From contig NC_055991.1 of the NCBI RefSeq assembly GCF_018446385.1, forward strand, positions 73,412,123 to 73,476,122: DNA of 64,000 nt, given 5' to 3'. This DNA comes from Zingiber officinale (Eukaryota > Streptophyta > Magnoliopsida > Zingiberales > Zingiberaceae). The notes beneath the pieces are model-generated. The model worked only from the letters and a program-made list of their open reading frames with translations. It was not told the origin of the DNA and did no database searches. The translations under genes were made by a program, and so were the position numbers. This document shows, in pieces, positions 1,941-57,958 of this stretch; position 1 is the first letter of the stretch, and each line of letters opens with the position of its first letter.

Positions 1941-1968
1941 CACTACAACAAAATCCCTCATAGACATC
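1941..1968. repeat. CACTA left terminal inverted repeat
   Basis: It begins CACTACAACAAAA and continues into catagacatc. It is the inverse complement of 8,215-8,242 with two mismatches. TAA precedes it directly. Confidence 0.95.
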
Positions 1969-2165
1969 AGTGGAACAACAACAGTTTTAAGCAAAAACCG
2001 ATGTCTTTGAGTATTTTACACCAATTTTTTCAAAAACCGATGTCTATGAGCGCTGAATTTCGCTCATAGACATCGATTTTTTAGCCGATGTCTATGAACG
2101 CCTTTTTTTTCCATTAATAGACACCGACTTTAACAGCGGTTTTTAAAACCCTGTGTCTATGATAA
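1964..2165. repeat. CACTA left subterminal repeats
   Basis: Several direct and inverted copies of a unit around accgatgtctatgag / catagacatcgatt. In CACTA elements such subterminal motifs are transposase-binding sites (family knowledge). The same motif recurs at the right end. Confidence 0.85.
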
Positions 2166-2530
2166 ATAAAATAATTTAATTTTTCCTCCCATACTTAGCC
2201 AAAATTTACAACACTTCCCTCCAAACCTAAACCTATATCGCGCCGTCCTTCCCCTTGCTAGATCGACGCCCCCTTCCTCTCCGATCAAGATCAACACACG
2301 ACTCCCTTGTGAGGTCTGTGGAAAACGACCACATCCATATCCTCTTTCCCCTTCTCTTCTCCTCTCCCTTCCGTCTTTGCCCTCTCGCGGGTTGCTCCAT
2401 CTCTTAGGGTTTCTTCTCCTCATGCTTTTTGGTTTCTGGTTTCTCCGTCTTTTCCTCATGCTTCCTGGTGCTTAGGGTTTCTGCTCTTTCGTCGTCTGCA
2501 CATTTTGCACCTCGCCTAGGGATCTTTCCA

Positions 2531-2832
2531 ATGACGATGTCCTCGACCGCTTCCGCTCTCATTCTCGCCATCATCCTTCTGCTTGTCGCCCCCTTGTCAC
2601 CTGGGAACTGCGCATCGACTGGAGAAGGTAACGCTCTCTTCTTCTCTTTCGATGGGTCGGGGAAAAATCGGAGCTTCGCCACGGAGTTTGCCCTCTATGG
2701 CGATGCTGAGATGAATAGCTCGGATGTGAGGGTGACGCGTGCGGCGAACGAGAGCTCCGGGCTTATGATTTACTGGAAACCAGTCAGATTCTTCGGCACC
2801 AAGCCCGGGTTCTTTCCATCAGATTTAGGTTA
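2531..2832 (+). pseudogene. Captured 5' fragment of a legume-lectin-like (L-type lectin) gene
   Basis: A GC-rich, 5'-UTR-like stretch (2,190-2,530) leads to an ATG at 2,531. The frame begins with a hydrophobic signal peptide (about residues 8-28, ALILAIILLLVAPLSPGNC) and continues FSFDGSGKNRSFATEF, then a GDAEM and a VTRAANESSGLMIYWKPVRF segment, characteristic of the N-terminal half of legume-lectin domains (concanavalin A-like). It stops shortly after GTKPGFF, where the family would continue. The C-terminal half lies 0.8 kb away at 3,636-3,870, with a transporter fragment between them. A secreted or receptor-kinase lectin was the likely source; the kinase part is absent. Confidence 0.7.
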
Positions 2833-2917
2833 ATCACAACGATGACAATTTCAATAACTCTGATATGCTGTTATTTCCTCTCATTAATGTTCGCTTGCTG
2901 ATCATGTATTTGCCCTT

Positions 2918-3529
2918 CTATTGTCAAAGAACTATTACATAGGTACAACTCGAGAACTGTCTAGGTTGAATGGTGTTTGCAAAGCTCCAATCATACAACA
3001 TTTCTCGGAATCCCTGTCTAGATCAACTACTATTAGAAGCTTTGATCAGCATCAAAGATTTATAAACACTAATTTCAACCTATCAGATCAGTTTTCTAGA
3101 CTAAAGTTTCACACAACCGCTGCAATGCAATGGCTTTGCCTTCGTTTGGATATGTTGTCGTCAGTTGTGTTTGCTTTTTCTTTACTTTTCCTAATCTCCA
3201 TGCCAAGAGGGGTGATTGACCCTGGTAATTTCCTAGCAGATAGTTCAATTCTATGTTATTTAAGTACATGTGATATTAATTTCTACCATTTTGGGTTGGC
3301 ATCCTCTTCCTCTCAGGTATATCTGGCCTTGCTGTCACATATGGACTTAATCTTAATAAGGTACTAACTTGGGTCATAAGGAATCTCTGTCAACTTGAAA
3401 ATCTAATGATATCTGTTGAGCGAATACTGCAGTACACGACCATTGACAGTGAACTACCTTTGTCAATAGAATCAAATAAACTATACTCAAGTTGGCCATC
3501 CAATGGAGAAATTGAACTTCATAATTTGT
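2918..3529 (+). pseudogene. Captured fragment of an ABCC (MRP-type) transporter gene
   Basis: Two exons are visible. Exon one (to 3,224) reads NYYIGTTRELSRLNGVCKAP, then a QHFSES..STTIRSFDQ segment, then LCLRLDMLSSVVFAFSLLFL and GVIDPG. These are hallmarks of the second transmembrane domain of plant ABCC transporters. An intron with GT-AG ends (3,225-3,316, 92 bp) keeps the frame into exon two (from 3,317), which reads GISGLAVTYGLNLN, ISVERILQYT and SSWPSNGEIELHNL, the linker just before the second nucleotide-binding domain. The fragment ends there, before any Walker A motif, so it cannot make a functional transporter. It interrupts the two lectin halves. Confidence 0.85.
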
Positions 3530-3635
3530 AGGTACACGTGACACCAAACTTATGTAAAACTAGTTTTTTCTAGTTTCCTCCATGTAATTCTGATTTGTGA
3601 CTTCTTCTTGTCGATTGTTAAGTGTAGATTTTTTC

Positions 3636-3870
3636 TAGTTGTGGATTCTTTCCGACGATGGTTTGCTTCTCATCCTCAGCAGAGGAGAAAAATTGCATTC
3701 TTGGATTGATTACGATGGAGAATCGAAGAGAATAGAGGTCAGGCTTTGCCAGGATAAGGATCCGAAGGAAGCAGCCCCTTCGATCTCTCACTCTATCGAT
3801 TTGTCTTACATGTTGTGGAGGAAGGCGTCCTGGGTGGGTTTATCTTCCTGGAGTGGCAATTCTAGTCATG
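3636..3870 (+). pseudogene. Captured 3' part of the legume-lectin-like gene
   Basis: The frame reads LSRGEKLHSWIDYDGESKRI, then EVRL, SHSIDLSYMLW and ASWVGLSSWSGNSS. This is the C-terminal half of a legume-lectin domain (the WIDYDG..RIEV strand and the VGLSSSSG loop). It probably comes from the same gene as 2,531-2,832, because the two pieces cover complementary halves of one domain. The middle of the domain is missing. The frame runs to a stop at 3,903-3,905. Confidence 0.65.
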
Positions 3871-3905
3871 ACATACTTGCACAATTCCAGTTTATTCTGC
3901 ATTAA

Positions 3906-5324
3906 TGCTTAGCAGCTTCAGGCATTCATATGACTGATGATGAAAGCAAATTAATTGTTCTATAATATAAGTATAGGATTGTTATATCAAAAAATTCATG
4001 CTAAAAAAATTTAGTAAAAAATATTTATGGACTCAGTGCATCTTTTTTTAACTAATAAATTGTAAAATAGTTTCCTTGTTTCCCATTCTTTAGGTTATCC
4101 TTTGATTGTTACTGCTTCATGGCATCATGAATGTTTTGTTTGGTCTATTAAGTTGTTTGGCTGTGGTTAATTTCAGCTCCTGTTTGAAACAAGAAAATGG
4201 TTTTGGTGCTGAGTGAATAGGAGAAATACTAATATACATGTATCCTGATTATATTTGCCCCTTTCATGGAAATTACTATATATTTCTTGTTCCTATTTAA
4301 CTTTTACAATTCATTTCTGATTATTTTTCATTGTGCGTTGTATTTGTTTGCCTAGTTCCTGTTTGCTACTTTGTAGACAAGTCTCAATTCTTAATCAGGA
4401 TCGGACAGGATGTGCTGCATGATGTATTTAAAAGGATACTTCTTTCATAACTAGCATTTGGTTTCTAATTGAGTTTGGTTAGTTTTATTATATTTAGTAT
4501 ATCCCAACTGAGTTGCATTTAAATTATTTGTATAAAAGTTGATTTCCATTGATAATTAGCTAAAACATTTAAATAGTTTTTAAAATTATAATTAAAATAA
4601 ATAATAATAATAATAAATTAAATTGAACTAAATTTTAATTTGTCGTAAAAAAATACAATAGCATGTCTTCGTCACTGTTACATAATTGCTTCCTATTATG
4701 TACTTTGATTGGACAAGGAAAGTCTCCCATTTATAGTGTTTACTTAGAGGTACTTGGTTGCATGGTATGAAAAGAGCAATAGGAAAAAAAATGGAATAAC
4801 GGTGCTTGATTTGAGTAAGTAGTGATGGATCCAACAGAATCAATCTTCCAAATATGGGATTACTTAGCAAAATGGGGTATAAAAATCTTTCTATTCTCAT
4901 TTCACACTTCTATTATTCTTATTTTTATTACCATTCATATTCTTAGGACGGATTAACAGGGACGCTGAGAATGAACACATTCATCTTTTACCATAATCAT
5001 TTTCATTACCATTCATATTCCTTTCCAGAAAACAAGCGCACCCTTACCCTTCTCACAAATCATGGAAGCAACGTGATGTCAAATGGCATGGTTCAAATCC
5101 ATTATTTAAAAGGCTCTCCATTGACTTGTTAAGGATCTGGTAAGTATTTTATCGCCAATGGCATGTTGAGACCAGCTCGTCAAAATTGATGTCTAAGTTA
5201 TTTACATCTCAATTCTATGCTTTTAATCTAAATGAAGAATTATGACAACATTTGGAGGTCAGTTAATAGTTATGGTGTTTGGCAACCATATTTATGATGA
5301 TGATGATAGCATCTTGTTCTGCAG
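3906..5324. other. AT-rich spacer inside the CACTA element
   Basis: No coding similarity recognised. About 4,880-5,040 contains a repeated phrase (attaccattcatattc twice), which might belong to a small nested element, but no clean inverted ends or target duplication were found. Confidence 0.5.
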
Positions 5325-6217
5325 ATTGATGCTCATATAGGCAGTGTTAATGACATTGCCTTTTCATATCCCAAGAAGACTCTCTCGATCATCACTTGCG
5401 GCGATGACAAGGCAATTAAAGTGAGTAAAACCATGTGGTTGATCAGCCAGAAGATTGTACAAGAAGAATTATATGTTCTTAACAGGTTCCGTTGCATGAT
5501 GAATTGGTGTGGGATGCTTCAACTGGACAGAAACAGTATACTGGACAGAAACAGAATTATATATTTCTAGTGTTTCATTATTTCTATCTGTGAAGTTTTT
5601 CTTCTCAACTTCAACTGATGGTAAAATCAAAGCACTTGGTTCCAATGCAGTTTTTCTTCTGGATGCAGTTTACTAGCACTTGGTTCCAATGCAGTGCATA
5701 AACTCTAGCAGTGGCCGTGCGATGAACGAAATCCATCGGGCAAGGTCAGAAAGAAACAGTTGTAAGAAATTATCTATTTGCTATAAGCCTAGTGCTGATT
5801 GTTTGCTTTGCTTGTTCAGTCAACTGCATCTGTTGCTCCTCAGCTCTGTCAGCCACCAAATGGTATTCTTATGACCAATGAAAGGAGTGATAACAATCCA
5901 GAAGAAGCAACTGCTTGTATTGCTTTATCTAAGAATGACTCTTATGCAACGTCTGCATCAGGTGGAAAAGTTTCTCTGTTAAATATGAGGACTTTTAAGG
6001 TGCGTAGCCATGAATTGATTTTACTCTTGCTACCAAAAATGGAGAAACCAAACCGACTAAACCGACTAAATCGAAACATATCTTTCAGGTTATAACCACT
6101 TTTATGCCAACCCCACCGGCAGCCACGTCTTTAGCATTTCATCCTGAAGATAATAACATGATTGCTGCTGGAACGGAAGATTCTAGTATTTTGATCTATA
6201 ATATTCGGATTGATGAG
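5325..6217 (+). pseudogene. Captured exons of a TOPLESS/TPR-type corepressor gene (WD40 region)
   Basis: Exon-like blocks with splice borders: 5,325-5,420 (IDAHIGSVNDIAFSYPKK, then TCGDDKAIK; donor gtgagt), about 5,507-5,540 (VWDASTGQKQY), 5,669-5,743 (LLALGSNAVHKL, then an in-frame stop), 5,820-5,999 (NPEEATACIALSKNDSYATS, then GGKVSLLNMRTFK) and 6,089-6,217 (TTFMPTPPAATSLAFHPEDN, then EDSSILIYNIRIDE). These are successive segments of the WD40 propeller of TOPLESS-family transcriptional corepressors. Several exons between them are missing, and there is a stop after VHKL. The N-terminal LisH/CTLH part is not here. It is a non-functional transduplicate. Confidence 0.88.
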
Positions 6218-6360
6218 GTTCATAATCTCGTGCTTTCTATTTGTCAAACTATGTCGATTCTTGATGTCTTCTATAGTTTGTATTGCTTTTGAAATTCAAT
6301 AGGTAACTTCCTCTTTTGCATTACTTTGAAATCATTGTCTATAATGTCACTTTCTTTCAG

Positions 6361-7070
6361 ATATTTTGAAGGTAAATGGATGTATTCAGGAACTCCAACT
6401 AAACAGTTCAGGTATTGGAGATGAGGTTGTTTAATTTTACTTGTTGCAAGTTCCGGTTGTTTGTTTCTTGAGGAAGAAAATGATTCTTGATTCTGGTAAA
6501 GTCTGAATGCTAAATGTGTTATGTAGGGTGCAAGGGTTATTGCAGATATGCTGAAAGAAAATCAAACTTTACGTGTACTGGAACTTAACAATAATATGAT
6601 TGAATATTCTGTATGACCTTATTCTTGGGCAATCTTTCATGTTTTTTTATGAAATTCCTAGATCTTTTACACTTTGTTTCTGGTGTCCTTACTCCTTACA
6701 CCTTATTTCCATGTGAAATTTTATAGGGTTTTGCAAGTCTTGCTGGAGCACTAGTTGAGAATAAGGTAATTCGATCTATACATCTCAAGCTAATAAGACT
6801 TACACACACTTAGATTTTCTATCCATGCAGTTCGTTCTTGCAGATTTAATTTCTCCATCAGATCTGTTGGCTTTCCAGTATTTATTGATTGTATTACTTC
6901 TCAGCAATTATGTAAAACTATATTTCTTCTTGTTTAGGAAAAATAACACTTCTAGATATTTGCAACAATGAGATTGGTCCCAAAGGCGCCTTTAGCATCG
7001 CTGAGTTTGTTAAGAAAACTAAGTCCTTGCTACGGCTGAATCTTTACATGAATGACATTGGCGATGCGAT
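6361..7070 (+). pseudogene. Captured exons of an EMB2004-like leucine-rich-repeat (RNI-like) gene
   Basis: Four or more exons with intact borders: 6,361-6,425 (LKVNGCIQELQLNSSGIGDE), 6,527-6,610 (GARVIADMLKENQTLRVLEL, then NNNMIEYS; donor gtatga), 6,727-6,765 (GFASLAGALVENK; donor gtaatt) and 6,938-7,070 (ITLLDICNNEIGPKGAFSIA, then EFVKKTKSLL and LNLYMNDIGDA). The repeat style (LxxNxIGxxGA) is that of ribonuclease-inhibitor-like LRR proteins. The wording is closest to the plant EMB2004-type protein, needed for Arabidopsis embryo development (assignment from memory of the family). The rest of the gene is absent. Confidence 0.75.
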
Positions 7071-7571
7071 GTGGTTATTGACTATTATTGCTTTATGCTC
7101 TGTTGCTTCACTTCTGAAACATAAATTATCATCTAAGGTGCATATATATATATCTCATTGGAAATCATATAAATGAATTGATGTTACTCATCTTTATTGC
7201 TGCTGAGGAATTTATTTACTTTCCATGTACTCTTAGTGATAAAAGTGAATTTATTATTTGCAAACTAAAAGTGAATTTATTTACTTTTCATGTACTCTTA
7301 GTGGTAAACAGTTATGCCATTTGGGGCGACTACTAATGAATTGAATTTGAAAGATTAAATTGCTGTTTATGTAGTTAGATTAAAATTTTTGGTTTGGATT
7401 ATATTAAGTTCCCAGGAATGATAGATCTATCACTATATGATGTGGTTGAGATAAATGATGAATGTTTTTCTTTTTAAGCATTCCAATTAGTCATCTTGTT
7501 ACCTGATGCTCTTACTACTTTTTCAACTATGATTTTTAGTCTTGGTTTACTAATATATTATTTATGTGTTT

Positions 7572-7659
7572 TTACAGTTTACAAATCTCAAGTACTCCAG
7601 AGTTGAAATTGATGAAGTGCGGTTCGAGTGGGCTGAATGCATGCTAGATTACATTTGAA
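7572..7659 (+). pseudogene. Exon-like fragment of unknown origin near the CACTA 3' end
   Basis: After a polypyrimidine tract and acceptor (tttttacag), the frame reads NLKYSRVEIDEVRFEWAECM, then LDYI and a stop. It looks like a terminal exon, but I do not recognise the protein. It may be a fifth captured gene or part of the parental element. Confidence 0.35.
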
Positions 7660-7924
7660 GTACGGTTCTATCTTGATGTGTTATTAAAAGAATGTTCTAC
7701 CTTGATTTTGATATCTATTAGCTAGCTTTTGATGTAAAAAGAATGTTTGAATATTTTATGGATATTATTGTAAGAAGATTATTTATATAATTTGTGAATA
7801 TTTGTGTATTTTATGGATATTGTTGAATGAAGAATATTTGTATAATTTGTGAATATTTGTGTATTTTTATATTATTGTCGGTTTTTCATTGTTTCGGAAA
7901 TCAAATTTGTGCTGTTAAAAAATA

Positions 7925-8225
7925 TACATATTACATCGATTTTCCACCGCTGCAAAACCGGTGTTATTAACTAATATTACATCGGTCATTTACCGCTGCC
8001 AAAACTGGTGTTATTAACATACAATATTACATCGATTTTACACCGTTGATGAAACGGTGTCGTTAAGTGATACTACACCGGTTAATAACCGATTCGAAGA
8101 CCAGTGTCGTTAAGTGATACTACACCGGTTTTAACCCGATGTCTAAAATGACAGACTTTTAACATCGGCTTCATAGACATCGGTCGAAAATGAAATAGAC
8201 ACCGGTGGAAAACCGATGTCTATGA
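7925..8225. repeat. CACTA right subterminal repeats
   Basis: Multiple copies of units such as tacaccggttttaacc, aaaaccggtgt, ccgatgtcta and catagacatcgg, in both orientations, mirroring the left end. Confidence 0.85.
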
Positions 8226-8242
8226 AGGTTTTTGTTGTAGTG
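8215..8242. repeat. CACTA right terminal inverted repeat
   Basis: It ends TTTTGTTGTAGTG, followed at once by the TAA target duplication (8,243-8,245). Confidence 0.95.
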
Positions 8243-8245
8243 TAA

Positions 8246-16051: not shown

Positions 16052-16283
16052 TGGCAACCAGATCCCAGACACAAAACCCTCCTGTAACAACTACTACAAG
16101 AACTAGTACTGAAGTAACACCTTTGTTTGAAGACCAGATCAGAGATTACCGCAGAAGTCAACGGCGATGGTACAATGCTCAACAAGGAATCCAAAGGCCA
16201 CGAAGAAGAATCTGGAACAACAAATGGACCCTCAAGCTTAGCTCAGACTATCTATGCAGGAGTGAGCTGCTATAGTTCCCGCC

Positions 16284-16802
16284 GAAATTCTGTACCACTC
16301 CAGAAGAGATGATGCTCATCATCGTGTTTATATACATCAGTCAGAAGAAGCCCTCCTGGTAACATCTAACCAATCTGACAGATCTTTCATCCAGCATGAA
16401 AGTTTTAATCAATTACAAAGAAGTGGTATGAGATTCCTGCATATGGGAGTCATACAAGTAAGAATTCAAATCCTTCACCGACAAGAAGAAGGAACAGTGG
16501 CCCTAGTTGTTTTCAGAGATAACAGATGGCAGGGAGACCAGGCCATCTTCGCCACTATTGAAGTTGACCTCACTTATGGAAGTCAGATAGTATACGTTAT
16601 CCCGGATACTATGCTAACCATATCTGACTTTTACAGGAATATTCAAATTTCTGTATTAACCAGAGGATACGAAAACTGGCGGAACGGTGAAGCAAATTTA
16701 CTAGTCACAAGAGGAATGGTTGCGAGGTTATCTAATACCCCCAATGTCGGATTTGCATATTCAGTAGCTAACGTGGTAGATTATTTGGCAAGCCGCGGAG
16801 TC
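16284..16802 (+). pseudogene. Movement-protein domain (30K superfamily)
   Basis: The frame contains MGVIQVRIQILHRQEEGT, a WQGDQAIFATIEVDL segment, IPDTMLTISDFYRNIQIS, then LTRGYENW and VTRGMVARLSNTPNVGFAYS, the conserved core of caulimovirid movement proteins that enlarge plasmodesmata for cell-to-cell spread. It is open from about 16,284 to a TGA at 16,803-16,805, after which the same frame goes on. Confidence 0.85.
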
Positions 16803-17079
16803 TGAGCACTGCCCGAAAGAAGATACAACACCAGCGATGTTCTCGGACAAAATTGGATCAGTAGGCAATCTACTGTAAACATACCCATGCAACCAACAGA
16901 GGTTAGTACACGGAATTTATTGGATGGTCGTATTTCTTTGCATTTTGAAAATTATCAGGCATCAACAACTTCATCACCCCCAACATACAAAGAACAAGAC
17001 GAGGAAGTCCAAAGTGATGAAGAGGAAGTTCATAGTCAACATCTAATCTCTGTACTTACGCATGAAGAACCATTGTTAG

Positions 17080-17490
17080 TAAAGAAAATTGATCCATCAG
17101 CTCAACTACACCAAAGAAAGACACTGGGAGCTGCTGGCTATGATCTGGCTATTAATCGAGCACAAGATATTCCTCGCAATAGCAGATCCTTATTAACAAC
17201 TGGCATCAGTATACAAGTTCCTCAGGGTACTTATGCCAGAGTAGCCCCACGATCAAGCGCCTCCTTACCTAAAGAAATTCTCATTGGAGGAGGAGTTATT
17301 GATTCAGATTATCGCGGAGAGGTAAAAATTCTTGCATTCAACACTACTAACACAAATATCTATTTACAGAGGCATGAATGTATTGCCCAACTTATAGTTG
17401 AACATATATCAACCCCTGAGGTCGTTGAAGTAAACAAGTTGGACAGTACTATCCGTAATCATACCGAATTTGGCTCCACTACTGAAATCC
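17080..17490 (+). pseudogene. dUTPase domain within the viral polyprotein
   Basis: Trimeric dUTPase motifs are seen in order: AGYDLAI (motif 1), PRSSAS (motif 2, usually PRSG), GGGVIDSDYRGEVKILAFN (motif 3, with the catalytic Asp context), IAQLIVE (motif 4, normally preceded by DR; here HEC) and EFGSTTE (motif 5, usually GFGSTG). The frame across it is open. dUTPase hydrolyses dUTP and so limits uracil in DNA. Motifs 4 and 5 are eroded, so activity is doubtful. Only some caulimovirid lineages carry this domain, which makes it a marker of the lineage. Confidence 0.88.
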
Positions 17491-17589
17491 TTTGTGAACT
17501 TGACACTGTCGACAAAAGGATGAAGGAGCTACTTGCTAACTATGATGATACTAAAGCAAAAGCAATTGCTCAAAGTTTTTTTTCCTTCC

Positions 17590-18130
17590 GAAGCAAGCTC
17601 TGCGGCATCCTCCCCAACTAATTCGGATGATGCACGTATGTGGTATAGCACCATCGGCATGCCAAATGTTTCAAGAGAACAAACGATATGGCTCGATCCA
17701 GCATCCAAAATTTGGAAAGAACAATTCAACATGCTTTTTCCACAAGAAGAGTCTTTTCATGTCATGCTCAGCTCAGATATTGACGATGAGCACATTATTT
17801 ATCTACAATATTTAGCACAAGCCCCTTTACAACACTTTTGTTGCTGCTGCTACTACTGCTAAACCTTATTGTCATATCATTGTAGCAACAAATGAAGAAT
17901 GGATGACTGATTATCCACAAATAAAGCAGTTGGAAGAACAATTGTATTCTTCAGCCATGCCACAGTATAGGCCACCCACTGATACTGCAATGGGTCCTGT
18001 TGGCTATCCACACGCTAGGGCCATAAAAGAATCTTCCTCTATGATGGCCCAGCAACCACCTATATTCGAAGGATATCGAGCAGGAAAAGGAAGGTTTAAG
18101 GCAAAAAACCAATCAGAATGGTGGAATCTT
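17590..18130 (+). pseudogene. Residual viral sequence where the capsid region should be
   Basis: Coding-like in two successive frames: DDARMWYSTIGMPNVSREQT and EQFNMLFPQEESFHVML, then from about 17,863 KPYCHIIVATNEEWMTDYPQ and PIFEGYRAGKGRFKAKNQSE. There is no Cys-Cys-His-Cys zinc knuckle and no recognisable full capsid core in these 540 bases, whereas relatives have well over 1 kb here. I read it as the flanks of a deletion. Confidence 0.6.
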
Positions 18131-18467
18131 TGTCATTCCTACCCAGCTCAAAGGCGGGTTAATGAAAATAGGTGTTCATTCCTTCCGAATTCCTTTTACT
18201 TATGCATTCCCTATGAAGCTAGGTGACGACATTCAGATGATATTGGGATGCAACTTCATACGAGCCATGAGTGGAGGAGTACGTATAGAAGGGAATGAAG
18301 TCACCTTTTATAAAAATGTGACTACAATTCAAACACAGCAAACAACCCCAACTCTAGCTACACTTGAGGAGTTAGATTTAGATGAGGAAGAGTACAATAT
18401 AATTTCCGAACAAATAAACGGAGGCACTATGGTCCACCCAAGTTTTCAAGAAAATTTACAAGGTTAA
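18131..18467 (+). pseudogene. C-terminal remnant of the viral aspartic protease
   Basis: The frame reads VIPTQLKGGLMKIGVHSFRI, then FPMKLGDDIQMILGCNFIRA and GGVRIEGNEVTFYKN, the part of the caulimovirid protease that follows the active site. The catalytic D-S/T-G motif upstream is absent, because the sequence changes abruptly at about 18,130 after SEWWNL. An acidic linker (LEELDLDEEEYN) then leads to the RT. Confidence 0.75.
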
Positions 18468-18479
18468 TAGGGGACTTAA

Positions 18480-19300
18480 CCCAAGCTGGATATATTGGGG
18501 ACAACCCAATGAAATATTGGGCTAATAATCAAGTTATGTGTCATCTTGAAATCAAGAATCGTGAATTTACTATTGAAGACAAGCCTTTGAAGCATGTGAC
18601 ACCCCAAATGCAAGATTCCTTTCAAAGGCATGTGAAGACACTCCTGGAATTAAAAGTTATTCAACCAAGCCAGAGCCGCCATAGAACAACAACAATTATT
18701 GTTTACTCAGGAACCACTGAGACAGGCATTGAGAAGAAAGGCAAGGAGTGACTGGTATTCAATTATAAAAGATTGAATGACAATACACACAAGGATCAAT
18801 ACTCCTTACCAGGTATCAATACTATCATTAAACGAGTTGGTTATAGTAACATTTATTCAAAATTTGATTTGAAAAGCGGTTTTCATCAAGTTGCTATGCA
18901 TCCTCAGTCCATTGAATGGACATCTTTTTGGGTACCTGACGGCTTATATGAATTACTCGTTATGCCATTCGGGTTAAAGAATGCTCCCGCAGTATTTCAA
19001 AGAAAAATGGATAACTGCTTCAGAGGAACAGAGCCGTTCATAGCCATATATATTGATGATATCCTGGTATTTTCTAAGAATGAAAAAGAGCATGCAGAAC
19101 ATTTGAAGGTTATGCTTGATATATGCAACAAGAATGGTCTCATACTAAGTCCAACAAAAATGAAAATAGCAGTACATACAATTGATTTTCTGGGAGCCAC
19201 TATTGGCAATAAAAGAATCAAATTACAACCTCGTATTATCAAGAGGATCTCAGGATTTCAAGAAAAGATCTTCAAACAACAAAAGGCCTGCGATCATGGT
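18480..19300 (+). pseudogene. Reverse-transcriptase domain
   Basis: Motifs seen: DQYSLPGINTII, YSKFDLKSGFHQVAM, MPFGLKNAPAVFQRKMD and the catalytic box YIDDILVF, then ICNKNGLILSPTKMKIA and IDFLGATIGN. This is a classic Caulimoviridae RT. A TGA at 18,749-18,751 interrupts it before the SLPGI motif, and a frameshift near 19,285-19,300 separates it from the connection region. Confidence 0.93.
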
Positions 19301-19893
19301 TAGGACTTCTTAACTATGCTCGTTCTTATATTCCTAATCTTGGAAAAACACTTGGGCCACTATATTCAAAAATTAGCCTGACCGGAGAAAAGAAGATGAA
19401 TAGTCAGGATTGGGCCTTAGTAAGACAAATTAAAGAAAAGGTCCAACAACTCCCGGATCTCGAGCTTCCACCAGAAAACTAGTTTATCATACTTGAAAGA
19501 GATGGCTGTATGGAAGGCTGGGGAGGAATATGTAAGTGGAAGCTACAACAATTTAATCCCAAATCAACAGAAAAAGTTTGTGCATATGCAAGAGGGAAAT
19601 TCTGTCCACCAAAAGCTACCATAGATGCCGAGATCTATGTAGTAATGAACAGCCTGGATAGCTTCAAGATTTATTATCTTGATAAAAAGGAATTAATGGT
19701 CCGAACTGATTGCCAGGCTATAATATCATTTTTCAACAAAAGCTTTCAGAACAAGCCTTCTAGAGTGAGATGGATAGCCTTCACCAACTTCGTCACCGAC
19801 ATGGGTATACCAATTAACTTCCAGCATATCGACGGTAAGGACAACCTTTTGGCTGATGCCTTGTCTCGTCTTGTGTGCAGTTTAACCACATGA
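19301..19893 (+). pseudogene. RT connection and RNase H domain
   Basis: After the frameshift the frame reads LRSWLGLLNYARSYIPNLGK. A TAG stands at 19,480-19,482, then the RNase H domain follows with ERDGCMEGWGG (first catalytic Asp), DAEIYVVMNSLDSFKIYYLD (Glu), VRTDCQAIISFF (Asp) and HIDGKDNLLADALSRL (final His and Asp region). The catalytic residues are present. It ends at the stop at 19,891-19,893. Confidence 0.9.
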
Positions 19894-30002: not shown

Positions 30003-32200
30003 ATAATAACAACAACCAAGTCTTTTTCCACTAGGTGGGATCGGCTGTATGAATCCTTTTATGTCATTGAGCTCTATCTCCTATTATATCATCATCTGTA
30101 TTTAAATAAATTTTATCTTGTTTTATTGTTGCTAACCAAGTCTTTTTTGGTCTGCATGTTTATCATAATTTCACATCGCCTAACTGGAGCATTTATTAAT
30201 CGTCTAAGTACATGTTCGTACCATCTTAAACGTGTCTCTCGGAGTTTTTCCTTAATGGACGCAACTTCAACTTTCTCTCTAATGCTCTCATTTCTTATTT
30301 TGTCCATCCTCGTATGTCCACACACCCACCTTAATATCCTCATCACTGCAACTCTCATCTTTTGCTCATGTGCTCGAGTCATAACTCAACATTCAGCTCC
30401 ATATAACATAGCAGGTCTAACTGCGATTTTATAGAACTTACCTTTAAGTTTAAGAAACACTCAACGCTCCTCTCCATTTCACCCATCCTGCTTGTATTCT
30501 ACGTAAGACATATCTCTCAATCCCTCCATCGTTTTGCAAAAATGATCCTAAATATTTAAATCTCTCGGTTCCGGGCAACTCGTTCTCTCCTATCATAACA
30601 ATTGTTTCATTACTTCTAATATTACTAAACTTAAATTCCATATATTCTGTCTTTAATCTACTAAGCTTAAAACATTTTCCTTCTAGTGTTGCCCTCAAAG
30701 ATTCTAGTTTAGCATTTACTCCTTCACATGTTTCATCCACCAAAATAATATCATCTGTAAACAACATGCACCACGGTACTGTGTCTTGAATGTGCGTAGT
30801 GAGTTCGTCCATAATTAGTGTAAAAAGATAGGGACTTAGAGCTGATCCTTGATGTAATCCTATCTTTATTGGAAATGCCTCAGTTACTCTGCCTGAAGTC
30901 TTTACTCTGGTCGTTATATCCTGATGCATATCCTTAATTAATTCAATATATGTTACGCTAACACCTCTCTCTTTTATAAAATTCTCCATATAATTTCTGT
31001 CGGGAAGTTATCATAAGATTTTTTTAAATCAATGAATACCATGTGTAGATCTTGTTTTTGCTCCTGATATTTTTCAATTAATTGTCTAAGAAGATGTATA
31101 GCTTCTATTGTCGACCTTCCAAGCATGAACTCAAATTGATTTTCTGTCACTGTGGTCTCCTTCCTTAATCTTTTTTCTATTACTTTTTCCCAAAATTTCA
31201 TAGTATGACTCATTAATTTAATACTCCTATAGTTTGCACAATTTTGTACATCTCCCTGGTTCTTATATAAGGGAATTAGAGTACTTATCCTCCATTGATC
31301 ATGCATTTTTTTCGTTTTCAATATCATGTTAAATAATTTTGTAAGTCATTCAATATATTGTTTCCCTAAGCACTTCCATACCTCTATCGGAATATCATCT
31401 GGTCCAATGGCTTTTCCTTTGTGCATCTCATTTAAAGTTTGTTTTACTTCTGAAGTTTGAATTCTACGATAAAAATTAAAATTTCTATGCTCATTTGATC
31501 TACTTAAATTACTTAAGTTAAGTTGGTCACCTAAATCTTCATTAAAAAGTTGATGAAAATACCTCTTCCACCGCTCTTTTACTTCTCCATCGTTTACTAA
31601 TACCCTATCACATTCATCTTTAATACATTTTATTTGGCTAAGATATCTTGTTTTCCTTTCTCTCACTTTAGCTATTCTATAAATGTCTCTTTCCCCTTCT
31701 TTTGTATCCAATTTTTGATATAATCGTTCAAAAGTTTCATTTTTTGCTTCACTCACTACTTTCTTAGCTTCTTTCTTGGATATTGTGTATTTTTTTTAAG
31801 TTTTCCTCATACTTACAAATATATAATTCCTTATAAGCTATTCGTTTTTCCTTCACTTTCTCTTGTACTTTCTCATTCCACCACCAAGATTCTTTACTTA
31901 GTGGTGCATGTCCTCACCAAGTACACTCTTAGCTACTATTTTCAACTTTGATACCATCTTATCTTATGTTATATTAGAGTCACCGTATATTTCACCTAAT
32001 ACTGGTACTTCTACCTTCTGCTTAAATATATTTTGTTTCCCATCCTTTAACTTCTACCACTTAATTCTAGGAATCATATATATTTTCTTTCTATTGATAC
32101 AATGTTTGAGGCGTATATCCAACACTACTAACCTATGTTGGGTAGTTAAGCTTTCTCTAGGGATGACTTTGCAATCTTTACAAAACTTTCTATCCTTCTT
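30003..32200 (-). mobile_element. RTE-clade LINE, 5'-truncated, minus strand
   Basis: The minus strand ends 3' with ggttgttgttattattg, the TTG-rich tail typical of plant RTE LINEs, preceded by cagccgatcccacctagtgg. Upstream lie the RT domain and its C-terminal region. Sequence 5' of the RT (31,757-32,200) matches the endonuclease-RT linker, but the endonuclease itself is absent, as in most truncated LINE copies. Target duplication not resolved. Confidence 0.88.
30113..31756 (-). pseudogene. RTE LINE reverse transcriptase, broken
   Basis: Three minus-strand open segments follow one another: 31,756-31,346 (KGKAIGPDDIPIEVWKCLG), 31,327-30,974 (WRISTLIPLYKNQGDVQNCA, then NYRSIKLM and FIDLKKSYD) and 30,989-30,450 (FPIKIGLHQGSALSPYLFTL, then the catalytic box FTDDIILV, where the family usually has FADD). 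The conserved end LRWVCGHTRMDKIRN is at 30,113-30,382. Frames differ between segments, so the gene is inactive. Confidence 0.88.
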
Positions 32201-37922: not shown

Positions 37923-38339
37923 CTAAAAAGATATCCAATCAAATTGAAATTCATTAGTTGGATATGAAAATCACATTACAAATAATATCTGCGCTCACCA
38001 ATGCTTGGGCAGGTTTCTTCCCAATAAGCATTCTAGCAGCAAACCGCTTATGAATGAGCTATCAGCCCTATAAAAGGTCAAGGAACAAACCATAGAAACC
38101 TACGTAATGACTAATGAATTATGAGTTATCTATTGCAATAATTTTATTTTGTTGAAACTCCAACAAAAAGCATGACAAAAGTAGTAATGGTTGTACATGT
38201 AAAAATAAATACAAAGCCAAAATGGCAAAGCTTAATGTGTGAATAAAAAATATGTCAACTTTGGAGCTTCACCTAACTTAGTCAATAGCAAATAAGAAAC
38301 AAGTTATATCATTGTATTCAATAAAAAGATAATTAACAA
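37923..38339. other. MOR1-copy-B intron-like flank
   Basis: Collinear with 51,540-51,790 of copy C (shared ggatatgaaaatcacattac, atgcttgggcaggtttcttc). No coding exon recognised in it. Confidence 0.6.
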
Positions 38340-40400
38340 TCCTGTCTCAACTGGAGAGAGGAACTCGATCCTTCGGTCGGAAGGGTAAAACCAATAATAT
38401 TATGCTCATGACAAGAATGTCAAAAGTCACATCCTTGTCCGACCGAGGAGATAAGTTCGATCCCTCAACACGGAAGGATAACAAGAAGGCTAAGATACTT
38501 GAAATTGTATTGAAACCATAAAGAAGTCTAATCCTATCCTAACTGGGAGAGGAACTCGATTGTTCGGTCAGGAGGGTAATAAGAAAACCAATATTACCAT
38601 GCTCATGCCACGAATGATAGAAGTTTGATCCTATTCCAACAAAGGAGAGAGAAGCACGATCCCTCGACCGGGAGGATAATAAGAAGACCAAGAAAACCTT
38701 TAAAATGTCCTAAATACCGCGAAGAGGTCTCATCCTATCCCAACCGGGGAGAGAAACTTAATCCTTTGGTTGGAATGGTAATACCAAGACCAATAATACC
38801 ATGCTCATGCCAAGAATGCTAGAATCCAGATCCTATTTCGACCGAGGAGAGGTCTCTGATCCTTCAGTCGAAGGGGGGAGGGTAATAATAAGAATATTGA
38901 AAAATCCAAAAGAAAACCGAGAATATCCAGCTACCCGTTCAATCGTGACCAAAAAGAGGGTAATACGAAGAAGGCCAAGAATACGATGAGAATATCCTGA
39001 ATACCATAAAGAAGTTCCATCGTGTCCTAATCTGAGAGATGAACTCAATCCATTAGTCGGGATGGTAATAAGAAGACCAATAATACCATGCTGATGTCAT
39101 GAATGCTAGAAGTCCCATCCTGTTTTGACTAGGGAGAGAAGCTTGATCCTTTGGCCAGAAGGATAATAACAAGACGGCCAAGAATACCCTGAAAATGTCC
39201 TAAATACAACAAAGAAGTCCCAATAATACCATGCTTGTGCCAAAAATGGCAGAAGTTCCATCCTATTCTAACAGGGGAGAGGAGCATTATCCCTCGGGCG
39301 AGAGGATAATAACAAGAAGGCAAAAAATACCCTGAAAATGTCCTGACTACCACAAATAAGTCTCATCCTGTCCGAGCCGGGGAGAGGAACTCGATCCATC
39401 GATCGGGAGGGTAATAAGAAGACCAATAATACAATGCATGTGCCATGAATGCCAAAAGTTTCATCCAGTTCTGATCGGGGAGAGAAGCTCAATCCTTCGG
39501 CCGAAGGATAATAACAAGAAGGCCAAGAATACCCGAATACCACAAAGAAGTCTCATCCTATCCTGACCAATAATACCATGCTGATGTCATGAATGCTAGA
39601 AGTCCCATCCTGTTTTGACTAGGGAGAGAAGCTTGATCCTTTGGCCAGAAGGATAATAACAAGACGGCCAAGAATACCCTGAAAATGTCCTAAATACAAC
39701 AAAGAAGTCCCAATAAAACCATGCTTGTGCCAAAAATGGCAGAAGTTCCATCCTATTCTAACAGGGGAGAGGAGCATTATCCCTCGGGCGAGAGGATAAT
39801 AACAAGAAGGCAAAGAATACCCTGAAAATGTCCTGACTACCACAAATAAGTCTCATCCTGTCCGAGCCGGGGAGAGGAACTCGATCCATCGATCGGGAGG
39901 GTAATAAGAAGACCAATAATATAATGCATGTGCCATGAATGCCAAAAGTTTCATCCAGTTCTGATCGGGGAGAGAAGCTCAATCCTTTGGCCGAAGGATA
40001 ATAACAAGAAGGCCAAGAATACCCGAATACCATAAAGAAGTCTCATCCTATCCTGACCGAGGAGGGTAACACGATCCTTCAGTCATGACGGTAATAAGAA
40101 GACGAATAATACCATGCTCATGCCAAGAATGCTAGAAGTCCCATCCTATTTCGACTAAGGAGAAGAAGCTCGATTCTCGACCGGGAGGATAATAACAAGA
40201 AGGCCAAGAATACCTGAAAATGTCTTGAATACCACAAAGAAGTCCCATCCTATCCCAACCGGGGAGAGGAACTCGATACTTCGGTCGGGAGGGTAATAAG
40301 AAGACCAATAATGTCATATTCATGCCAAGAATGTCAAAAAGAACCATTGAATTCAAACCGGAGAGAAGAGCTTGATCCCACAATTGGGCACAATAATAAG
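38340..40400. repeat. Tandem array 2 of the hairpin repeat family (about 100-105 bp monomers)
   Basis: About twenty monomers. Two monomer types tend to alternate, one continuing accatgctcatgccaagaat and the other cctgaaaatgtcctgaatac. Each contains tcccaaccggggagagga and cgatccttcggtcgggaggg, whose ends are complementary. Long minus-strand frames across it simply follow the repeat period. Confidence 0.9.
39080..40059. repeat. 490 bp higher-order tandem duplication inside array 2
   Basis: 39,080-39,569 and 39,570-40,059 are nearly identical with an offset of 490 bases. Monomers within the unit differ much more from each other, so this is a recent higher-order duplication. Confidence 0.92.
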
Positions 40401-40620
40401 AATGTCCAACCTTGATAGGGAAAATCCCTCCGAGGCAAGGGGGAGTAGCGACCCAAGACTAGGGCAAGACCTACACGACCAAGGGAAGTAGTGACCCAAG
40501 GTCATGAAGATTGTACTAAGAATAGGGTAAATCCCACCCCGACCAATGGGAGTAGCTACCCAAGGTCGTGAGAATTGTACTAGAATAAGGGCAAGTCTCG
40601 TCCCTTCCAATTACTTGATT
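40401..40620. repeat. Shorter tandem repeat at the end of array 2
   Basis: Three units of about 65-75 bp with gggagtagcgacccaag, gtcatgaagattgtactaag and gggtaaatcccaccccgacc. It is different from the main monomer but shares the ccgacc style. Confidence 0.75.
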
Positions 40621-55732: not shown

Positions 55733-56829
55733 TTGTAGGTACCAGAATTATAATCCAACTGAGAAAAAGAGCTCGATCCCACGGTCACTAAGATAATAAG
55801 AAGAAGAATGCCTAAATACCAACGATTTACTGTTAAGAATAAGAATGCTAGAATACCCATCTCGACCGATGGGAAGAGCTCAATCACTATATCAGGAGGA
55901 TAATAACAAGAAAGCTAAATAATCTCCCAATCGAATAAAGGAGTTTGATCCCTGGTAGGAGGATGACAACTAAAAAACCAAGAATACCATAAGTCTAATA
56001 ATGTCCTAATAGAACATATCAATAATGTCCCAGTCGGAGAGAGGAGCTCAATCACAATAACAGGAGGAATAACTAGAAAGCCAAGAATACCAGAAGTCCA
56101 ATAATGTCCCGACCGAGGAAAGGAATTCGATCTCTTGGTCAGGAGGAGGACAACTAGAAAACCAAGAATACCAGAAGTCCAATAATGTCCCAGCCGGGGA
56201 GAGGAGCTCAATCACTAACAGGAGGATAATAATCAGAAAGCCAAGAATACCTGAAGTCCAATAATGTCCCGACCGAGGAAAGGAATTCGATCCCTTGGTC
56301 GGGAGGATGACAACTAAAAATCAAGAATACCAGAAGTCCAATAATGTCCCAATAGAGCATATCAATAATGTAACAGCCGGGGAGAGGAGCTCAATCACTA
56401 TAACAGGAGGATAATAACGAGAAAACCAAGAATACCAGAAGTCTAATAATGTCCCGACCGAGGAAAGGAGTTTGATCCCTTAGTCGGGAGAATGATAACC
56501 AGAAAGCCAAGAATATCAGAAGTCCAATAATGTCCCGACCGAGGAAAGGAATTTGATCCCTTGGTCGGGAGGATGACAACTAGAAAACCAAGAATACCAA
56601 AAGTCCATAATGTCCCAATAGAGCATATCAATAATGTCCCGCCCGAAGAGGAGCTCAATCATTATAATAGGAGGACAATAATGTCCCAACCGAGGAAAGG
56701 AGTTTGATCTCTTGGTCGGGAAGATGATAACAAGAAAGCCAAGAATACCAGAAATCCAATAATATCTCAACCGAGGAAAGGAGTTTGATCCCTTGGTTAG
56801 GAGGACGACAACTAGAAAACCAAGAATAT

Positions 56830-57958
56830 CAGAAGTCCAATAATGTCCCAATAGAGCATACCAATATGTCCCAACCGGGAGAGGAGCTCAATCACTATAT
56901 CAAGAGGATGATAACCAGAAAACCAAGAATACCAGAAGTCCAAAAATGTCACGACCGAGTAGATAAATCCGATAAGACTAGAAGACGAGTCACATCTGGG
57001 ATAGAATACTAATGAGATTAGAAAACCAATCCACTAGGGGATATTTGTGAAAAAAGACTAGCCCAGGACCGGGTATATGTCGAAGAAATAAGAAAACCAA
57101 GATCACCTAACAATATCGAGAAGTCTAATAGGATAATAATTCCAATCCCTCCCGGAGATAGTAAGTGAAAAAACCAAAAGATCTAAAAAACTAATGTTGT
57201 TTAGGGTTATTAGTAAGATCAGAAAACCAATCCCCTAGGAGAATATTAATAAGATATGGATAAGATTATAAAATTAATTCTACTCGGGGTATAGACCAAT
57301 ACAATCAGAAAAACCAATCCCGCAAGGGAATATTAATAAGATCAGAAAAGCAATCCCGATAGGGAATAACTAGAAAACCAAAAATATCAGAAGAGTCCAA
57401 TAATGTCCCAATAGAGCATACCAATATGTCCCGACCAGGAGAGGAGCTCAATCAATATATCAGGAGGATGATAACCAGAAAACCAAGAATACCAGAAGTC
57501 CAAAAATGTCACGACCGAGTAGATAAATTAGGTATAATATTAAAAATTCCGATAAGACTAGAAGACGAGTCACATCTGGGATAGAATACTAATGAGATTA
57601 GAAAACCAATCCACTAGGGGATATTTGTGAAAAAAGACTAGCCCAGGCCCGGGTATACGTCGAAGATATAAGAAAACCAAGATCACCTAACAATATCGAG
57701 AAGTCAATAGGATAATAATTCCAATCCCTCCCGGAGATAGTAAATGAAAAAACCAATAAGATCTGAAAAACTAATGTTGTTGAGGGTTATTAGTAAGATC
57801 AGAAAACCAATCCCCTAGGAGAATATTAATAAGATATGGATAAGATTATAAAATTAATCCTACTCGGGGTGCAGACCAATACAATCAGAAAAACCAATCC
57901 CGCAAGGGAATATTAATAAGATCATAAAAGCAATCCCGATAGGGAATAACTTAGAAGT
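56830..57958. repeat. Roughly 560-580 bp tandem duplication at the end of array 3
   Basis: Two close copies, about 56,830-57,385 and 57,386-57,958. The offset is 560 bases at gaccgagtagataaat and 580 after a 20-base insertion or deletion near 57,530. The units include non-hairpin text such as gggttattagtaagatcag. Confidence 0.9.

Follow-up and report, generated by a model that had tools for sequence, protein, structure and literature searches.

A multicopy Pack-CACTA family of ginger with a constant 3' exon and cargo probably exchanged stepwise between fixed ends

CACTA transposons carrying pieces of host genes have been described in several plants. The subject of this report is such an element from ginger (Zingiber officinale), located at positions 1941-8242 of a 64-kb window on C6, the window being the whole stretch of DNA analysed (64,000 nucleotides). 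The nearest single element is Tgm-Express1 of soybean, a 5.7-kb CACTA element with five unrelated host gene fragments including introns, for which chimeric spliced transcripts were obtained by RT-PCR (PMC1947982). Both elements are CACTA transposons combining unrelated host fragments with introns, but the part of the soybean report available to us makes no mention of a 3' coding exon common to other elements, whereas the ginger element has one; unlike Tgm-Express1, it also belongs to a many-copy family with readable capture steps, known from DNA and gene models. The nearest family is Tpn1 of Ipomoea nil (339 copies, mean length 7,081 bp, with a chimeric transcript cited), likewise composed of non-autonomous CACTA elements with 28-bp ends, 3-bp duplications, subterminal repeats and captured host sequence (PMC5105172). 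Tpn1 comes from another plant lineage, the sections of its description at hand contain no mention of a common terminal coding exon, and the likeness is one of description, end sequences aside. Pack-CACTA and Pack-TYPE elements of Arabidopsis, rice and maize similarly show CACTACAA ends, duplications and coding DNA from several loci within one element (PMC8903248).

How Pack elements acquire genes is still debated, with gap repair and tandem fusion as rival models. For animal Pack-TIRs, template switching during gap filling has been proposed; 160 (56.9%) of them lie within 15 kb of their parent, and microhomology is common among them (PMC8277862). We consider it highly probable that the ginger element is a non-autonomous Pack-CACTA of a large family, which gained its cargo stepwise by template-switching gap refill and carries a constant 3' exon. 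No description of a Pack-CACTA family with a constant right-end coding exon and readable nested replacements was found in the open-access literature, and the word CACTA does not occur in the main texts of two ginger genome papers. The kind of element is therefore known, while its architecture and scale are apparently new. As its seemingly young copies stand one capture or deletion step apart and parents lie in the same assembly, the switch points can be read directly, and the family may show how such elements assemble genes in new combinations.

The element is delimited by the following features.

1938-1940, no strand: left target site duplication, TAA (direct reading)
1941-1968, plus strand: left terminal inverted repeat, 28 bp (arm match and genome-wide pattern matches)
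1958-2162, no strand: left subterminal repeats, ACCGATGTCTATGA-like, in both orientations (motif scan)
7921-8225, no strand: right subterminal repeats (motif scan)
8215-8242, minus strand: right terminal inverted repeat (arm match and genome-wide pattern matches)
8243-8245, no strand: right target site duplication, TAA (direct reading)

On the basis of its ends, duplication and subterminal repeats, the stretch constitutes a complete non-autonomous CACTA element, as a first-pass annotation of the window had claimed. The terminal arms (1940-1971 and 8212-8243, 32 nt) were 91% complementary. The motif CACTACAACAAAA, with at most one mismatch allowed, matched twice in the window, exactly both times and precisely at the element ends (0.26 matches expected by chance; two or more reached in 4 of 100 shuffles). 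With up to three mismatches, ACCGATGTCTATGA occurred 12 times in the window, including six matches inside 1941-2170 and four inside 7860-8242. CACTA-starting terminal inverted repeats, a 3-bp target site duplication and subterminal arrays at both ends thus place the element in the CACTA superfamily, and its multicopy family with common ends and varied cargo, together with host coding DNA whose ABCC and leucine-rich repeat (LRR) parents lie elsewhere, places it among Pack-CACTAs. A six-frame Pfam scan of the element, which is insensitive to split exons, detected no transposase family and only the lectin domain at E 0.01.

Searches of the 3.09-Gb ginger assembly showed that these ends are common. 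The 28-mer end pattern, with two ambiguous positions, had 1293 forward and 1293 reverse matches, compared with 0 and 0 for the control, so that the possibility of a terminal match unique to this locus, which the first-pass annotation had set as a ground for refutation, did not hold; no match was found in the viral contigs scanned with the same pattern. Among the 100 end matches listed, all on C1, 17 facing pairs lay within 25 kb (about 0.5 expected), and two neighbours were otherwise oriented. Two family ends that face each other at a distance of about 19 kb, the right one contained in L040 1-2401 (C1:35249000-35251400), delimit a candidate long autonomous relative.

Copies were sought with the first 1501 bases as query, and 40 of the 3097 first-look candidates were scored: 13 (window included) matched approximately 1-1501, one matched 123-1291, five extended to 936, and 21 to 873 or 849. 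Twenty of the 39 other scored places were fetched in full, namely all 12 full-length ones, three of the five and five of the 21; among the 19 remaining, L037 was read in part, and both L037 and L038 stand outside the 20. Fifteen of the 20 fetched copies possessed both ends, bearing out the expectation that other copies share them, and 14 of these 15 were flanked by an exact 3-bp duplication, with 13 different triplets (exception: L019, CGT/TGT). Copies were 94-98% identical and spread over many contigs. Since the duplications differ between copies, the element has transposed.

Between the ends, the identified fragments all lie on the plus strand, in the following order.

2531-2813, plus strand: legume-type lectin fragment, 5' part; reading frame open from ATG 2531, lectin homology ending at 2813 where ABCC starts (type C copies run on into the lectin middle)
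2813-3620, plus strand: ABCC transporter fragment with intron; exons 2930-3224 and 3317-3531, TAG at 3529-3531
3639-3934, plus strand: lectin fragment, 3' part; preceded by acceptor AG 3637-3638, homology to lectin beginning near 3647, PF00139 E 9e-12
4451-5213, plus strand: segment of unassigned source, compared with other copies
5214-6356, plus strand: TOPLESS-type fragment; exons including 5325-5420, 5820-5999 and one from 6089, internal deletions, 21-bp duplication 5631/5675
6354-7149, plus strand: RNI-type LRR fragment; about 1.3 kb of the parent absent inside, parent match 96.7% and 96.9%
7569-7658, plus strand: constant 3' terminal exon; acceptor TTTTTACAG at 7569-7577, 26 codons and TGA at 7578-7658

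The closest protein matches of the cargo were Zingiber officinale proteins. The lectin 5' piece alone matched PF00139 weakly and below cut-off (E 0.031), and shared 88-96% identity with 18 lectin-type models of ginger, and 50% and 58% with two more; searches of the PDB with the lectin pieces gave no match at E 0.01. For the ABCC piece, the best solved chain was ABCC13 (E 1.9e-50), and the Pfam ABC_membrane match (E 3e-5) lay below the family cut-off. Protein matches of the TOPLESS piece included named TOPLESS/TPR proteins, while among the 60 PDB matches listed of 567 only WD40 proteins of other families appeared. In eight fetched copies (L009, L013, L014, L017, L020, L024, L025 and L028), 268 bp stand in place of 4451-5213, and part of these reads as a TOPLESS-type protein. 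The lectin, ABCC and TOPLESS assignments of the first-pass annotation were supported by Pfam, solved structures and protein searches, and its single orientation of the fragments was confirmed. Its EMB2004-like piece proved to be an LRR fragment (PF13516, E 8e-13, with agreeing solved-structure matches, and near identity of part of it to the ginger product 'leucine-rich repeat-containing protein 74B-like'); the name EMB2004 was not confirmed. The intron borders it had noted retained GT/AG wherever checked. Given these borders and the matches of the ABCC and LRR pieces to genomic DNA across their introns, the captured cargo is host genomic DNA with introns and not complementary DNA.

Two of the four parents were located by the search that the first-pass annotation had proposed. 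The ABCC piece (2813-3620) traced to an ABCC array on C11 (parent at C11:109.94 Mb) and its partner C12, where four loci matched it at 96.7, 96.7, 95.4 and 95.3%, unbroken over 808-809 bp, with further ABCC exons on both sides of the matched part. In the 9.9-kb stretches around these loci, the best end-like 28-mers had 10-11 mismatches. The LRR parent is a gene at C19:3.83 Mb with a partner gene on C20, matching 6354-6931 at 96.7% and 6922-7149 at 96.9%; about 1.3 kb between the matched parts is skipped in the element, and the exons of the parent extend past the match on both sides. An origin of the four pieces from one locus, where they would lie adjacent, is rejected by the position of the ABCC and LRR parents on different chromosomes, which upholds the multi-gene capture proposed earlier. 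Parents of Pack-TIRs are often near their elements (PMC8277862, as far as that source was available), whereas both parents found here lie on chromosomes other than that of the window copy.

The copies fell into four types, differing chiefly through internal replacements and deletions. Type C (L025, L026 and L028, the second with extra private changes) has an intact lectin middle, lacks ABCC and keeps a longer TOPLESS stretch. Type B (L009, L013 and L017) has ABCC, retains 815 bp of TOPLESS sequence missing from type A, and has itself lost 5783-6352. Type A comprises the window copy, L010, L016 and L018, plus L019 with small deletions. In type D (L021-L023), the ABCC core 2877-3455 is swapped for 999 bp flanked on both sides by ABCC remnants, and the 4451-5213 segment of type A is kept in whole or in part; the 999-bp insert includes the exons of a fifth gene, as read by gene model P0120. 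The incomplete copy L014 combines ABCC and the TOPLESS deletions of type A with the B-like old 268 bp at 4451-5213, and appears intermediate between types C and A. L011, L012, L015, L020, L024 and L027 were truncated, incomplete or privately rearranged. Read across the copies, cargo has evidently been gained and swapped in steps within fixed ends. Read by parsimony, the order was probably lectin, TOPLESS and LRR, then ABCC in place of the lectin middle, then the fifth gene in place of the ABCC core. A linear series C-B-A was dropped, since 5783-6352 is absent in B and present in A and C, which makes type B a side branch. In L021, the 3' part between the equivalents of 6011 and 7711, tail exon included, consists of other cargo that is also found in the TOPLESS-type models P0001, P0009 and P0034.

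In the mechanism that we favour, transposase supplied in trans would move the element, a gap in the element would be refilled by DNA synthesis, and a switch of template to a host gene followed by a return to the element would bring the host piece in. Template-switching synthesis is favoured because nested replacement keeps both flanks and because filler was copied: at the right border of the fifth-gene piece, all four type D copies read (L021-L023 and L038) carry an exact 22-bp filler identical to lectin part 2779-2800, a string with a single occurrence in the window. The TOPLESS deletion is marked by the 21-bp string present twice; at the LRR deletion, about 10 aligned bases overlap.

Nearly every complete copy read has, close to its right end, a constant 3' exon with its own acceptor and stop. 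It was present in 14 of the 15, at 540-588 bp from the 3' end, as well as in L014; its acceptor letters were altered in L009 and L025. An attribution of this exon to the LRR gene was rejected, as L012 and models without the LRR piece carry it. At least 109 gene models of ginger also carried the tail; their contigs had 22 different lengths, which fits the 11 pseudochromosome pairs of a haplotype-resolved ginger assembly (PMC8342452). This set consists of the 109 matches of a 141-residue query, minus five tail-less models (P0239, P0240, P0241, P0243 and P0244), plus five from the best 120 of the 137 matches of another protein search, and 109 is a lower bound, returned proteins being restricted to 0.55-1.75 times the 141 residues of the query. 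The tail was C-terminal in 108 of the 109 models and exact in 44. Ahead of it stood 61 different octamers, or 50 clusters of 30-mers, while whole model bodies formed only 28 single-linkage groups because the models share fragments. The models of this set matched 62 Pfam families, some of them repeat families that overlap; these include kinases, thioredoxin, cyclophilin, SRF-type transcription factors, Mlo and ribosomal L10. That at least 109 gene models share an exon which is transposon-borne in the copies read matters for counting genes and for studying gene families in ginger.

Several observations weigh against this picture of a transposed, stepwise-loaded family with a constant exon. The right end was absent within the stretch read in five of the 20 fetched copies (L011, L014, L015, L024 and L027), the six-frame scan overlooked the split ABCC, TOPLESS and LRR exons too, which limits its transposase result, and no parent was located for the lectin or the TOPLESS piece. 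The series does not form a single straight line, types A and B being sister branches. At the left ABCC border the overlap is no more than about 1 base, so microhomology lends no support there. Joins of captured exons to the tail are known from gene models alone, and the copies examined for CACTA ends around the tail were all of the lectin type. Finally, the tail exon is absent from L021, whose right part differs, and from L040, a 2.4-kb end stretch of another member that has only its last 208 bp in common with the window element. These two absences, together with an exon not traced to a source, are what would be expected if the tail were an early captured gene fragment carried along and not native to the element. 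We regard this origin as rather unlikely, given that the tail follows 50 clusters of preceding sequence and keeps its place beside the right end as the upstream sequence varies; even if captured, the exon now behaves as a constant part.

An improbable alternative to template-switching gap refill concerns how the pieces entered. In the tandem insertion and re-mobilisation model put forward for Arabidopsis Pack-CACTA and extended to other Pack-TYPE elements (PMC8903248; PMC13317346), the outer ends of two neighbouring CACTA elements mobilise and fuse the host DNA between them, and the earlier steps (lectin, TOPLESS and LRR) could stem from such events. The model leads one to expect relics of CACTA ends or subterminal motifs between fragments, but none was found there above the shuffled level. 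In ginger the change is instead a nested replacement with copied filler, ABCC lying within the lectin piece and the fifth gene within the ABCC piece with both flanks kept each time. Tandem fusion was accordingly rejected for the later steps, on the missing relics and the filler. An ordinary chimeric host gene or an assembly artefact is scarcely credible: relatives are annotated as protein-coding in ginger, but the ends, the duplications, the highly similar copies on many contigs, the stop codons and the transition-rich decay all argue otherwise.

In the preferred reading, captured exons in sense orientation could be spliced to the constant exon, and gene heads would thereby become closed transcription units. 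A tentative extension is that the family acts as a natural genome-wide gene trap, in which a fixed acceptor, stop and downstream sequence would let sense captures persist or be expressed preferentially, hundreds of ginger fusions might be annotated as ordinary genes, and the succession of template switches would be preserved in nested copies. The all-sense arrangement of the four pieces has a chance of 1 in 8 and is weak by itself; the common 3' exon gives firmer grounds for expecting sense capture to matter. Gene models favour open sense frames, so the tail-model set cannot measure orientation bias.

A chimeric transcript from the element is plausible: the sibling gene model P0119 reads lectin, ABCC, lectin, TOPLESS and tail in the same order as a single model. 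At its start, P0119 (ZIOFF_062345) has a copia-type reverse transcriptase piece (PF07727) joined to the lectin part. The window copy is unlikely to yield a long chimeric protein, because stops at 3529-3531, within 5210-5260 and within 5643-5720 close the frame where relatives read a residue. Of the earlier interpretation, the Pack-CACTA identity and the multi-gene capture stand, and the chimeric transcript is plausible. As to the small RNAs against the parental genes that it also considered, the captured pieces lie in one orientation and provide no built-in hairpin.

The window copy appears to be decaying. In 106 tails (three of the 109 were too short or diverged and were left out of the count), 66 of the 84 amino-acid changes fit C>T/G>A, a class that makes up 18 of the 176 missense changes possible; with each distinct change counted once, 17 of 30 fit, the copies being related. 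Type A copies differed from the window copy by 1.7-1.8%, and transitions made up 75-82% of the differences. As the tail changes are mostly C>T/G>A and the type A differences small and transition-rich, this suggests young, methylated copies.

Elsewhere in the window, a tRNA scan of the 64 kb gave no hit. Pararetrovirus-like frames occupied 16266-19303 (movement protein PF01107, dUTPase PF00692 and reverse transcriptase PF00078), and a reverse transcriptase frame at 30453-31007 on the minus strand (PF00078) was read as LINE-like. Clustered long, diverged direct repeats were present at 38338-40402 and 55873-57956.

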